Assembly (NCBI RefSeq): GCF_000332095.2
Contig: NZ_KI913949.1
Location: 2,287,752 to 2,351,751 of the forward strand
Length of the DNA: 64,000 nt
Direction of reading: 5' to 3'
From: Leptolyngbya sp. PCC 6406
GTDB lineage: Bacteria > Cyanobacteriota > Cyanobacteriia > Phormidesmidales > Phormidesmidaceae
Shown: positions 36,231-41,378 of the stretch, in pieces
Layout: every line of letters starts with the position of its first letter
How positions within the stretch are numbered: the stretch's first letter is position 1
Translations under genes and position numbers: made by a program
The notes under the pieces: model-generated
The model's input: only the letters and a program-made list of their open reading frames with translations
Told to the model about the DNA's origin: nothing
Database searches by the model: none

Positions 36231-37085
36231 TCAATCCATCACCTGGCAACAATCCAGAAAAGGCTGCTCCGCAAAAATTTCCAACCCATAACTCGCCAGC
36301 AACCCACGCCATGCCGCCAAAACCTCAGCATTATTAGGCTCAGACCTGCGTAAAACCGCCAATTCATTCAGCGCCTCATACCAGAACCCCTCCTCCCCAT
36401 ACCGCTGCGCCCTCTCCAATGGAGGTAACCCATCCATTTGCGCCAAAACCCCAGGTTCCACAGGTTGATACTGCACCAGGCCCCCAGATCGAGGATTACC
36501 AGAACGCCCCGGGCCAGTAGTCACCATCACCTCAGCAATCCAGGTATAGGTGAGACCGGGCTCCAAAGCATAATCCAGTTCTATGGAGATCAGCCCCGCT
36601 TCTGTGGGCATAGGAAAATCCTGCTCCGCAACTAGATGATAATTCCGCATCACCTGAAGCTTCAGGATCATTCCAGGGTCGTAACCATCGGGAACATAGA
36701 TCCAAAACTGAGGCCGGCTGTCACTGCCATAGGCCAGGATGGCATCAGATGCCTCAACACAGTCTTCCCCCTCAGAGAAAGTACCGGTGCCAGGTACCAT
36801 CGCCACCATCAAGCTAGAACACGGAGCCCGCCCCCCACCGGAGCTTCTAGGAGGGGGATTGCCAGAGTCACTTAAGGGATCACTAATGCGTAAACCTTGG
36901 GGAACAGGGCTTACTTGTAAACCGTGAGTACTATACGCTAAGCCATCTGAAAATGATTGCTCCTTTACAGCCCCTTGGCTGGACAGATCCAGAAATGGGA
37001 TGCTACTGAATTGCACCTCCCCTAAAACACTGAATGGCCCATGAAACAGCAAAATTCCAGATAAGAGTATCGACGAGCTATGCAT
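36231..37085 (-). CDS. DUF928-family secreted protein
   Basis: Last gene of the four-gene CHAT-CHASE2 operon, starting 19 bp after it. The 284-residue protein has a signal peptide (ILLSGILLFHGPFSVLG). A DUF928-like body follows, with the Gly/Arg-rich SGGGRAPCSSL near residue 83, FWIYVPDGYDP, and ISIELDYALEPGLTYTW. The tail has a helical pair typical of the family (ERAQRYGEEGFWYEALNELA). DUF928 is almost confined to cyanobacteria and has no assigned function. Periplasmic location is inferred from the signal peptide, which would place it near the CHASE2 sensor domain. Confidence 0.86.
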   Translation of the reverse strand: MHSSSILLSGILLFHGPFSVLGEVQFSSIPFLDLSSQGAVKEQSFSDGLAYSTHGLQVSPVPQGLRISDPLSDSGNPPPRSSGGGRAPCSSLMVAMVPGTGTFSEGEDCVEASDAILAYGSDSRPQFWIYVPDGYDPGMILKLQVMRNYHLVAEQDFPMPTEAGLISIELDYALEPGLTYTWIAEVMVTTGPGRSGNPRSGGLVQYQPVEPGVLAQMDGLPPLERAQRYGEEGFWYEALNELAVLRRSEPNNAEVLAAWRGLLASYGLEIFAEQPFLDCCQVMD

Positions 37086-37104
37086 GGTAAAGCACCCTTT
37101 TGAT

Positions 37105-39546
37105 TTATTTCAGTCTCAGCTTGTGAAAACCCAGGGGAATACTAAATCCTAAGATTAAGTACATCGACATGATCAGTCCATAGGGCAACCAAATGCCTTG
37201 TAAGAACAACAGATAGTAAATCCCCTGAAACGCCAAGAGTTGAACCAAGAATAAAGTCATTCCTTGCTTGGTGTTTCTGTCAAGGAGAAGTGACACTGTT
37301 GCCACCACAGCCCAGATCAAAGTCCACAGTATTTTGACTAACGGCGATGCCCCTCGTATTAACGGCCTGTCATCTAGGACAGCACTAATAATCTGACTGG
37401 CCATTTGAGCATGGAGCGCAATGCCGGGACTACCATAAGTCCTATCTAATTCATAGGGAGTCCAATTGACATCTGTAGAGTCAGACTCAGAGTCTTCTGA
37501 GCTAGAGGCTAAGCCTATCATTAATATCTTGTCCTCAAATAATTTTGGTTCCTGAGCGATAGCGCTACCGTTGAGAACAGTCGTTAGCTCAACGCTACGG
37601 GGAGGATGAGCCCGATAATTAACCAGTAGTTGATATCCCAAGGCATCGTCGAGAGGCAACTGGTAACCACCTGTATTGTGAGTCAGTTTTGGCATGGGCA
37701 CATTACCAATACTGACAATTCTTGCCAAGGGATCACCACTATTGTATGAGTATCCTTCCGGTTCCAGATAGGCTGTTGCGACTTGAAGCGCTAGCGACCG
37801 ACTAGTTGGACATATCTGCTTTGGACTCATACCCAGAGCCTGTCGTCGAATTACGTTGTCTGGGTCTAGAACAAAGGCATCACTAAAGCCTACGTTTTCA
37901 ATAGGAAAATTTGAGGGCGGAGCTGTGCCAGTGACTTTGGCAATCGTGTCACCCATCTCACAAACCATGAAAACATTGTCTATGGAATCCAGTGCCGTCA
38001 ACAGTTGTTCACTCAACTGATGATCCCTAAAGATGGAAGTAGCCAAAACCCTGGGGGGATAGTCCCCGGCTTGACGGATAATTTCCGCGATCGCATCATC
38101 GGCCAATGATCCTTGCATATCCATTTTTAAAGACTCCTGATACCGCTTATCAGCCTCATTCACGGTGATCAGCAAAAACCGCCCATCTGGCCCCTCAGCC
38201 GGTCGTAACCGCATGAAATGGTCATAGGCATTCAGCTCCATAGCCTGAAATAGCCCCAGGGATTGTAACCCTGTCAGGATTGCAGTCAGGACAACACTGA
38301 TCAACGCAGCCCTAAAAACCGCTTTGCGATAAGAAAAAGCTCGTACCGGCGGGGGCTCTGGTTTTGGTATTACGTCTGGACTTACAGCCGGATCAAACAC
38401 ATTGCTCGCAGCCTGATCACCAAACACATTGCCCGCGATGCGGCCTCCGGTGCGGAGTTGGTGCCAGGTGGGGGGAGGGGGAGCCGTGGGGTTTTGACAG
38501 AGAATGGGCAGACTGCTAGCGCAGGGGTACTCATTCTCCAGGATGCGAAGCTTCTTGCGGGCGTCGCGCACCGCCAGGTGCAGCGGCAGACCACTGCTGT
38601 AGGCCGGAAGCAGATTTTTCAGAAACTGTTGGGCGACCTGATCCGGGACCGGCTCCCGCATGACGATCAACTGAGGGATATTGAGCCGCTCCAGATCCCG
38701 CGCCAAGCCCAGGCCATCACAGGAGTTGAAAATGGCAATTTCCAGACTATTGGCAATCGCCTTTTGGAGTCCTTCCTTGAGATCCTGGAGAGGTAATTTC
38801 TCTTGATCATTGAGGCTAATGACGCCTTGCTCTCCCTCGGTGTGACTGTGACCGGCAAAAAAGAAGATATCCCAGGGCTGATCCCAGAGGGCATCGTGGA
38901 GTGCTGCGCGGGTGGGTTGGGGGAGGAAGCAGATCTCAGCGTCAGGAGAGAAGGTTTCTAGAAACGTGCGATCGCGCTCTACCTCAATGCCTTCACTGCC
39001 ACCGAGCACTGCTAGAATCCTGACTTTCCCCTGTGGATTAACGCTCTGTGTTCGCGTCGTTAAAACTTGCTCTGAAACTGAGGCACTGAGGATAACTTCA
39101 GCCCCTGGATAACGATCCAGAAAATCCCACTCTTGCCAAGGCAACTGTCTTAACTGAGCACTATCGGTACGCAGCAAAATCCGAATCTGATCTTGAGGAT
39201 TAAGCTGTTCTCGTAGACCATCACCGATGGGCTTAAAGGTGTCTGTTCGCAGCCAAGTTTGAAATTGTTCCTGAAGCTCCGTCGCGATTTGGCGACAGTC
39301 ATCCTTTCGCGATTGGATAGAGCCACTAAGCTGAACGGTTTTAAGCGTCAGCTCACGATACGATATAGACAATCCACGGTAGCTCCCACGCCACTGGTCT
39401 AGTATTCTAAACAAAGGGCGATTGGCGGGCAAAAATCCTTTATCTCTAAAGGTGGGACGACGTTCCTCCTCCCCAATCTCCACCGAGACTTGCACTCCCT
39501 GATTTGGAGAATCCTGCTGGAGATCGAGAATAACAAGTTTAGCCAT
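37105..39546 (-). CDS. CHAT protease fused to CHASE2 membrane sensor
   Basis: An 813-residue protein. Residues about 140-350 are a CHAT domain with His233 (FFFAGHSHTEGEQG) and Cys276 (IFNSCDGLGLA), both intact. A Pro-rich linker leads to TM1 (about 411-432), then the CHASE2 extracytoplasmic sensor (about 435-700; LNAYDHFMRLRPAEGPDGRF, PELDRTYGSPGIALHAQM-like region) and three closing membrane helices (LVKILWTLIWAVVATVSLLL and two more). The layout puts the protease in the cytoplasm and the sensor outside. It lies between DUF1822 and DUF928 genes with short gaps (49 and 19 bp). A sensor-controlled protease is a reasonable inference; target and ligand are unknown. Confidence 0.92.
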   Translation of the reverse strand: MAKLVILDLQQDSPNQGVQVSVEIGEEERRPTFRDKGFLPANRPLFRILDQWRGSYRGLSISYRELTLKTVQLSGSIQSRKDDCRQIATELQEQFQTWLRTDTFKPIGDGLREQLNPQDQIRILLRTDSAQLRQLPWQEWDFLDRYPGAEVILSASVSEQVLTTRTQSVNPQGKVRILAVLGGSEGIEVERDRTFLETFSPDAEICFLPQPTRAALHDALWDQPWDIFFFAGHSHTEGEQGVISLNDQEKLPLQDLKEGLQKAIANSLEIAIFNSCDGLGLARDLERLNIPQLIVMREPVPDQVAQQFLKNLLPAYSSGLPLHLAVRDARKKLRILENEYPCASSLPILCQNPTAPPPPTWHQLRTGGRIAGNVFGDQAASNVFDPAVSPDVIPKPEPPPVRAFSYRKAVFRAALISVVLTAILTGLQSLGLFQAMELNAYDHFMRLRPAEGPDGRFLLITVNEADKRYQESLKMDMQGSLADDAIAEIIRQAGDYPPRVLATSIFRDHQLSEQLLTALDSIDNVFMVCEMGDTIAKVTGTAPPSNFPIENVGFSDAFVLDPDNVIRRQALGMSPKQICPTSRSLALQVATAYLEPEGYSYNSGDPLARIVSIGNVPMPKLTHNTGGYQLPLDDALGYQLLVNYRAHPPRSVELTTVLNGSAIAQEPKLFEDKILMIGLASSSEDSESDSTDVNWTPYELDRTYGSPGIALHAQMASQIISAVLDDRPLIRGASPLVKILWTLIWAVVATVSLLLDRNTKQGMTLFLVQLLAFQGIYYLLFLQGIWLPYGLIMSMYLILGFSIPLGFHKLRLK

Positions 39547-40615: not shown

Positions 40616-40646
40616 GATGTTCTCGTATGAGCTAGGTTTAATCAAT

Positions 40647-41378
40647 TTACAAAGCACCATCCAGAATATATTCCCGGATTTTAGGGCTAAATCGTTTGAG
40701 GCTTCTTTGGTAGAACGAGCTTAAGGTTGGGACCTTTTCATCCAGTTGTGTTGCTAGAGCATCCCACTTGGAATTTTCAAACCGCCAGAGGGCGATGACC
40801 TGGAAATTGGCACGGGGATTACCGCGAACACAAGTTGCCCTAAATTCTCCTTGGGGATCTGTTTCTAACACAGTACGAACTTGCTCGGAGGGCAAAGGAT
40901 TCTCCTCAGAGATGTCGGATGTGGATATCAATTCTCGACCGTCTTCCTGGATGCCATCCCGAAGGAAAAACTCTCGCTTGTATAGATAGTGCTTTTGAGT
41001 TTTATCGGAGCCACGAATATGACGAGAGAAAATAGGGTCTTCAATGGTCTTCATGGCCTGACTCAGGCAACGACGATTGATATGAAACCGGAGCCAATTC
41101 AAAACGGGTCCCCGGCTCGGATCATATCGATCGATTTCTTCATAGATCAGCGCCATCAGAAGGGTGTGGGCTTCATCACAAATTTCCTCGTAGGCATGGT
41201 GCAGAGATACGGGCAATCGGCTCTTAGATGGCTGATACAGCCGCCGATGTTGGTGTAACAACTGGAGTAATTGCCGGAGAGCCTTGCGGCGTTGTAGTCT
41301 TGCCGTTTCTGGGGAGTAGCCCTGAATGGCGAGGACTAACGCTTGTAGCTGATCATTCAATCTGGGATGTGCTTCCAT
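40647..41378 (-). CDS. Divergent sigma-70-like factor
   Basis: First gene of the operon, 243 residues. The middle has a sigma region 2-like helix set (EEICDEAHTLLMALIYEEID, RYDPSRGPVLNWLRFHINRR), matching the YDPxxGxxxxWL pattern of RNA polymerase core-binding helices. The C-terminus resembles a region-4 helix-turn-helix (VIALWRFENSKWDALATQL, then TLSSFYQRSLKRFSPKIREY). The region between is not conserved to my eye. It differs from the housekeeping and ECF types. Transcription control of its own operon or of surface genes is an inference. Confidence 0.72.
   Translation of the reverse strand: MEAHPRLNDQLQALVLAIQGYSPETARLQRRKALRQLLQLLHQHRRLYQPSKSRLPVSLHHAYEEICDEAHTLLMALIYEEIDRYDPSRGPVLNWLRFHINRRCLSQAMKTIEDPIFSRHIRGSDKTQKHYLYKREFFLRDGIQEDGRELISTSDISEENPLPSEQVRTVLETDPQGEFRATCVRGNPRANFQVIALWRFENSKWDALATQLDEKVPTLSSFYQRSLKRFSPKIREYILDGAL

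Follow-up and report, generated by a model that had tools for sequence, protein, structure and literature searches.

How might a signal at the cell surface be passed to transcription by a compact gene set that encodes a sensor, a putative protease and a sigma factor? This is the question raised by a locus of Leptolyngbya sp. PCC 6406 within the 64,000-nt stretch of DNA analysed here (the window). The minus strand of positions 36231–41378 carries four intact, tightly spaced genes, all with open reading frames (Table 1). The first two overlap by 14 bp, and the gaps that follow are 49 bp (DUF1822 to CHAT-CHASE2) and 19 bp (CHAT-CHASE2 to DUF928), confirming the closely spaced, one-strand set described in an earlier note on this DNA. 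The DUF1822, CHAT, CHASE2 and DUF928 domains all score above the Pfam cut-off, gene 1 being the sole exception among the four genes. No Rfam family was found in the operon region, and sigma-70 promoter-like and terminator-like sites were at or near chance level. We propose, with a probability of roughly 40%, that the operon encodes a chain that signals across the inner membrane in one direction, from the envelope through the CHAT protease and cleavage of DUF1822 to release of the sigma factor.

Table 1. Features of the operon and its surroundings in the window
Feature	Coordinates	Strand	Basis
Gene 1: divergent ECF (sigma-70 family) sigma factor, 243 aa	40647..41378	−	family profile, TIGR02937, AF2 model
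Gene 2: DUF1822 protein, 354 aa	39596..40660	−	Pfam 2.2e-55, AF2 model
Gene 3: CHAT-CHASE2 membrane protein, 813 aa	37105..39546	−	Pfam CHAT 4.7e-12, CHASE2 3e-40, hydropathy
Gene 4: exported DUF928 protein (predicted), 284 aa	36231..37085	−	Pfam 6.9e-30, hydrophobic N-terminal segment
TPR-CHAT protein, 900 aa, signal-peptide-like N-terminus	32575..35277	+	Pfam CHAT 8.7e-53, TPR
Two-partner-secretion cluster	22900..32372	+	Pfam ShlB, TPS
ShlB/FhaC transporter	22900–24753	+	Pfam ShlB 5.8e-28
TPS exoproteins	26305–27351 and 29952–32372	+	Pfam TPS 9e-38 and 1.3e-51

The gene order, whose absence elsewhere would have refuted the idea of the earlier note, is found in full (sigma, DUF1822, CHAT-CHASE2, DUF928) in 54 of 71 complete CHASE2-type loci, from dozens of genera. 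No recognised sigma gene stands at the expected place in 16 of the 71, which speaks against the chain; in its favour, the sigma slot is maintained even where a longer sigma-70 protein of another kind fills it (TIGR02937, E as low as 5e-33). Among the cyanobacterial genomes sampled, most of the larger ones contain the set, some copies are plasmid-borne, and the genome studied here holds a second, very divergent copy. It is a real and widely conserved cyanobacterial gene set that probably relays a surface signal via a membrane-bound caspase-like protease to a sigma factor. The core operon and the signalling idea had already been predicted (Kaur et al., 2021; PMC8195603), so the idea of the earlier note is not new. 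In the passages of that paper available to us, the core is a caspase-like protein with a variable sensor, CHASE2 being named, together with an ECF sigma factor and DUF1822; a stimulus is proposed to be sensed via the variable C-terminal domain, leading to autopeptidase activation and, last, to action via the ECF sigma factor coupled to the system. The window operon shares with these EACC2 systems a constant N-terminal domain joined to a caspase-like domain and a variable C-terminus, as well as ECF sigma and DUF1822 neighbours, with no need for TRADD-N; we assign it to them by architecture and neighbourhood. Their variable C-termini include CHASE2 with TM helices, kinase and STAND, as in the window family, where a block of ~360 N-terminal residues is constant across 63 proteins and the C-termini are CHASE2, PsbP-like, TPR, HEAT, periplasmic-binding, kinase, nSTAND1 or WD40. 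Three features go beyond those passages: DUF928, not mentioned there, is here the regular partner of the CHASE2 type; exoprotein and TPR-CHAT neighbours, of which we found no mention there, are here recurrent; and DUF1822, called a TPR protein there, is here modelled as a non-TPR, two-domain protein.

The leading gene, earlier called sigma-like, encodes a true, divergent ECF sigma factor as judged from profiles and a structure model. Its single sequence gives E 0.068 for Sigma70_r2, under the Pfam cut-off. When the family profile was compared with solved structures, the ECF sigma factors RpoE (1.2e-5) and SigK (5.7e-5) were found, and 18 of 39 family members match the NCBIfam sigma70-ECF model (TIGR02937; best 4.1e-14). 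Sigma factors are also the top structural matches of the AlphaFold (AF2) model (pLDDT 84), E. coli sigmaE giving the best alignment (Z 10.8). The three lines of evidence are concordant on sigma regions 2 and 4, by which ECF membership was judged. No common promoter motif was found 5′ of the sigma gene across loci, and autoregulation by the sigma factor is therefore unsupported; the only strong signal there was the common cyanobacterial palindrome GCGATCGC, and an ECF-like GAAC pattern (15 matches vs 5–10 in shuffles) was rejected as too weak.

The AF2 model of the DUF1822 protein (pLDDT 84.7) comprises an N-terminal alpha+beta domain (~20–175) and a C-terminal beta-sandwich (250–353), between which low-confidence stretches (180–194 and 226–242) surround a conserved L204/W207/W216 motif. 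In the model a flexible linker with conserved Trp thus connects two domains, and given this layout and the lack of a TPR family match in Pfam we rejected the TPR assignment. No sequence similarity to solved structures was detected, and in the PDB the model gave no more than weak matches, beta-sandwiches that align with the C-terminal domain (Z up to 7.5), which we do not take as kinship. In the type III-E CRISPR system CASP, the CHAT protease Csx29 cuts Csx30, an inhibitor that binds an ECF sigma factor and is built of two domains and a flexible linker (Strecker et al., 2022; PMC10028731). Here, as there (Csx29, Csx30 and CASP-sigma), a CHAT protease, an ECF-type sigma factor and a two-domain, flexible-linker protein are encoded together, and we regard CASP as an analogue in working. 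Its sensor, however, is the RNA-guided Cas7-11 complex rather than a membrane CHASE2, and the CHAT domain of Csx29 is fused to TPR rather than to CHASE2. No relationship between DUF1822 and Csx30 was detected by NCBIfam and PDB sequence searches, the Csx30 model being absent from the NCBIfam matches of 52 DUF1822 family members. By analogy with Csx30, DUF1822 is a likelier CHAT substrate than the sigma factor. It would act as an anti-sigma factor or sigma-holding adaptor and would be cut by CHAT, most likely in or near the interdomain linker, whereupon the ECF sigma factor would be freed and its putative target genes transcribed. The linker as cut site is a guess, because Csx30 is cut within its C-terminal domain, past the linker.

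Gene 3 joins CHAT (PF12770; 46.4 bits against a cut-off of 24, E 4.7e-12) to CHASE2 (PF05226; residues 421–749, 138.9 bits, E 3e-40) behind an N-terminal domain (1 to ~110) that is probably EACC2; the CHASE2-specific HMM search used strict domain boundaries, with CHAT kept apart. Hydropathy shows a hydrophobic segment before CHASE2 (409–427) and a hydrophobic C-terminal stretch after it (736–803), so that the fusion and the closing membrane stretch described earlier both stand. The first segment is preceded by K/R and followed by D/E, and CHAT is therefore predicted to be cytoplasmic. His233 and Cys276, correctly placed by the earlier note, are retained in 62 of 65 homologues. Conservation of this dyad across many genera would be needless for a pure scaffold, and we consider it improbable that CHAT serves mainly to recruit DUF1822 and the sigma factor to the membrane and signals by binding instead of proteolysis, although the tree distances of both sigma–DUF1822 and sigma–CHAT are coupled, as such a role would have it. 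The CHAT block ends at ~364 and the CHASE2/TM block begins at ~415. The linker between them gives room for the autopeptidase activity proposed, in the passages available, by the definers of EACC2 systems (PMC8195603): the caspase-like domain would cut itself, for example at 365–408 before the membrane helix, and the freed soluble part would act, with DUF1822 as partner and not substrate. Alone, this leaves unexplained why the gene keeps DUF1822 and one of the two kinds of sigma gene as companions, and the nearest tested CHAT-sigma system cuts a separate protein (PMC10028731); we regard self-cleavage as the unlikelier course, yet one of some weight. Cleavage of DUF1822 would resemble sigmaE control by RseA/DegS (as summarised in PMC10028731), where an outside signal likewise leads through proteolysis to ECF sigma release; here, however, the protease itself bears the sensor, and the predictions place its catalytic domain in the cytoplasm and make the presumed anti-sigma factor a soluble protein. 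A CHAT domain with a transmembrane part is also found in HetF, a cyanobacterial putative protease and TPR-containing divisome protein whose function is abolished by active-site mutation (PMC8406250); gene 3 was rejected as HetF (NF045509, 23.9 bits against a cut-off of 1200).

Conclusions from the distance-matrix test rest on domain-trimmed sequences only: full-length sigma, DUF1822 and DUF928 sequences gave a neat chain fit, whereas after trimming a DUF1822–DUF928 link emerged and a chain in the order of the genes did not fit best. The partial correlations of domain-trimmed tree distances were 0.54 for CHASE2–DUF928, 0.41 for sigma–DUF1822, 0.40 for CHAT–CHASE2, 0.34 for sigma–CHAT and near zero for sigma with CHASE2 or DUF928. 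The value for DUF1822–DUF928 (0.47) does not fit a simple signalling chain. No sigma+DUF1822, DUF1822+CHAT or CHASE2+DUF928 fusion occurred in the retrieved loci.

The DUF928 protein (E 6.9e-30), which the earlier note had taken to be secreted, has a hydrophobic N-terminal segment (6–24) and is predicted to be exported; its profile found nothing significant in the PDB. DUF928 follows 68 of 70 CHASE2-type genes but none of 26 genes with other sensors, and 46 of 70 DUF928 genes in 12 genomes lie <2 kb from a CHASE2 gene, against 0.7 expected. Together with the correlation of 0.54, these counts strongly support the suggestion that CHASE2 and DUF928 form the outside part of the system. Exoprotein, ShlB or TPR-CHAT neighbours accompany 47 of 69 CHASE2-type operons vs 0 of 25 with other sensors, and a Pfam scan of the flanking ORFs in the window revealed exoprotein and transport genes. 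In the proposed chain, CHASE2, partnered by exported DUF928, would respond to a presumed ligand that reports on the condition of the envelope, possibly on that of the neighbouring two-partner-secretion exoproteins, and the signal would activate the cytoplasmic CHAT protease with its His233/Cys276 dyad. It is a bolder and doubtful extension that DUF1822 is a new anti-sigma family cut by a membrane CHAT and that CHASE2–DUF928 is a general extracytoplasmic sensor pair reporting on such exoproteins; if true, much of the cyanobacterial phylum would hold a counterpart of the Craspase/Csx30/sigma switch that does without CRISPR and can exchange its sensor. The position beside exoprotein genes also bears on whether the operon could be a conflict or programmed-cell-death system, triggered by invasion or damage and leading to cell death or expression of defence genes. 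In the passages available, Kaur et al. group EACC2 systems with apoptosis- and immunity-like systems (PMC8195603). Plasmid copies, and variants with other sensors that bear nSTAND1, kinase or WD40 domains, point the same way. Nevertheless, PADLOC defence models gave zero matches to the four operon proteins and no toxic effector domain was recognised by Pfam in the four CHASE2-type proteins; with the exoprotein setting, this makes a conflict role quite unlikely.

If the signalling chain is right, a set of proteins with little known function becomes one pathway, bearing on the CHASE2 ligand, the role of DUF928 and caspase-like control of transcription, and the CHAT-protease/linker-protein/sigma switch of type III-E CRISPR would be in use with many other sensors. 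The four-gene unit is small enough to be rebuilt in E. coli.

Outside the operon, the TPR-CHAT gene of the window is a convergent neighbour and a recurrent partner locus; a convergent TPR-CHAT gene downstream was the commonest layout in the neighbourhood survey (26 cases).

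Of 194 class-level genomes, 127 gave CHAT matches, and we searched 100 loci, from 63 genomes in 48 genera, with purpose-built HMMs. The order and strand of sigma factor, DUF1822, CHAT-CHASE2 and DUF928 were present in 54 of the 71 complete loci of the CHASE2 type (CHAT gene fused to CHASE2) with room upstream, which bears out the conservation of gene order across cyanobacteria for which the earlier note had proposed a neighbourhood survey. The sigma gene in these 54 was of a short ECF type in 43 (full order in 29 genera) and of a longer sigma-70 type of 400-530 aa, matching TIGR02937 (up to 5e-33), in 11, proportions that are approximate because the loci were picked by CHAT matches and, in a few cases, by sigma matches. 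RefSeq plasmid records also hold adjoining DUF1822, CHASE2 and DUF928 genes, the gene in the sigma position being annotated as hypothetical. The operon core and a sensing-to-sigma proposal already appear in Kaur et al. 2021 (PMC8195603), and a full-text DUF928 search gave a single paper, in which a Nostoc cluster with WD40, DUF928 and CHASE2 genes is noted.

The four genes, all intact, are minus-strand genes of a cyanobacterial genome 5.78 Mb in size. Pfam cut-offs were exceeded for DUF1822 in gene 2, CHAT and CHASE2 in gene 3, and DUF928 in gene 4; gene 1, as a single sequence, has diverged too far to be recognised by Pfam (Sigma70_r2 E 0.068). Its previous label, sigma-like, was confirmed: a family profile with 38 aligned relatives retrieved ECF sigma factors from the PDB (best 1.2e-5), TIGR02937 was matched by 18 of 39 family members (best 4.1e-14), and the structure model aligned best with E. 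coli sigmaE (Z 10.8), the remaining top rows being sigma factors. A second operon with this arrangement, very strongly diverged, is present in the same genome (locus L220); a sigma-factor identity was sought for its first-gene protein and was not demonstrated.

Coordinates and properties of the operon, its surroundings and related loci of the same genome
Feature	Coordinates	Strand	Observation
TPS/ShlB genes	22900-32372	+	
TPR-CHAT gene	32575-35277	+	
Stretch between TPR-CHAT gene and operon	35293-36220	+	REP-associated tyrosine transposase-like gene (NF047646 E 1.8e-16, below cut-off), followed by GTAGGGGCACCCCTTGTGGGTGCCCGGTGCGCGGGTGA-like repeated units
Four-gene operon	36231-41378	-	
Two neighbouring ORFs upstream of operon	41654-42855	-	Resemble halves of a single transposase
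L220 operon	L220:2793-8518 (genome C1:1817292-1823017)		
L220 first gene			453-aa protein, YDPSQSALTTW motif
L220 DUF1822 gene			1.9e-20
L220 CHAT-CHASE2 gene			CHASE2 3.6e-17; profile comparison 1.4e-37
L220 last gene			242-aa protein, signal-peptide-like start, borderline DUF928 similarity
Gene before L220 operon			Caspase-domain (Peptidase_C14) protein with TAT-like signal
L221	C1:2190000-2209500		

The survey proteins share a constant CHAT half and differ in the remainder (CHASE2, PsbP-like, TPR, HEAT, periplasmic-binding, pentapeptide, protein kinase, nSTAND1, or nSTAND1 with WD40). The next gene downstream is DUF928 for 68 of the 70 CHASE2-type genes and for none of the 26 genes of other types (Fisher p 1.8e-21, relatedness uncorrected); counted by genus, DUF928 stands at every CHASE2-type locus in 36 of 38 genera and at other-type loci in 0 of 19. 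Across 12 genomes, a CHASE2 gene stood no more than 2 kb away for 46 of the 70 DUF928 genes (expected 0.7); DUF928 therefore accompanies CHASE2 generally. At locus L221, a gene for a CHASE2 histidine kinase-receiver adjoins DUF928 and TPR-CHAT genes, with TPS genes nearby, and thus the input side is retained and the output side swapped. Adjacent cysteines (CC) occur near the C-terminus of 17 of 42 DUF928 proteins, including that of the window (alignment A3).

Of 69 CHASE2-type operons, 47 have a TPS exoprotein, ShlB or TPR-CHAT gene no farther than 6 kb away, against none of 25 operons of other types (p 7e-10, relatedness uncorrected); a named set, overlapping the first in part, gave 34/65. 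The commonest layout is that of the window, where DUF928 is followed by a TPR-CHAT gene in convergent orientation, with TPS and ShlB genes farther out. Since the window's TPR-CHAT protein has a signal-peptide-like N-terminal sequence and a TPS secretion domain shares a single polypeptide with CHAT at three loci (L128, L109 and L045), export together with two-partner-secretion systems is probable for some CHAT proteins.

In type III-E CRISPR, Csx30 is the substrate of the CHAT protease Csx29, consists of two domains and a flexible linker, and binds and inhibits an ECF sigma factor (PMC10028731). By analogy, these three roles can be read in the operon's CHAT, DUF1822 and sigma factor, CHASE2-DUF928 taking the position of the RNA-guided sensor. 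CHASE2-DUF928 would provide the sensor input, CHAT would act as the Csx29-like protease, and DUF1822, like Csx30, would bind and inhibit the ECF sigma factor and be cleaved by CHAT. Pairwise tree distances, taken over 43 loci, fit a pair of modules (sigma-DUF1822-CHAT and CHASE2-DUF928) that the CHAT-CHASE2 fusion connects; they also contain an unexpected DUF1822-DUF928 link.

In the DUF1822 model, two domains are predicted with confidence, and the stretch between them, of low confidence and variable length, contains an invariant Trp; this predicted layout is not that of a TPR protein, the label used in Kaur et al. 2021 (PMC8195603). For this non-TPR layout, the strict pairing rule of CHASE2 and DUF928, the association of CHASE2-type operons with exoprotein genes and the two alternative sigma types, we found no earlier description in the open-access literature, and earlier mention elsewhere is possible. 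In the wider phylum, many genomes of 1.6-2.5 Mb carry one weak DUF1822 match each (small-genome family f30), within frames of ~950-1300 aa and covering only the N-terminal half.
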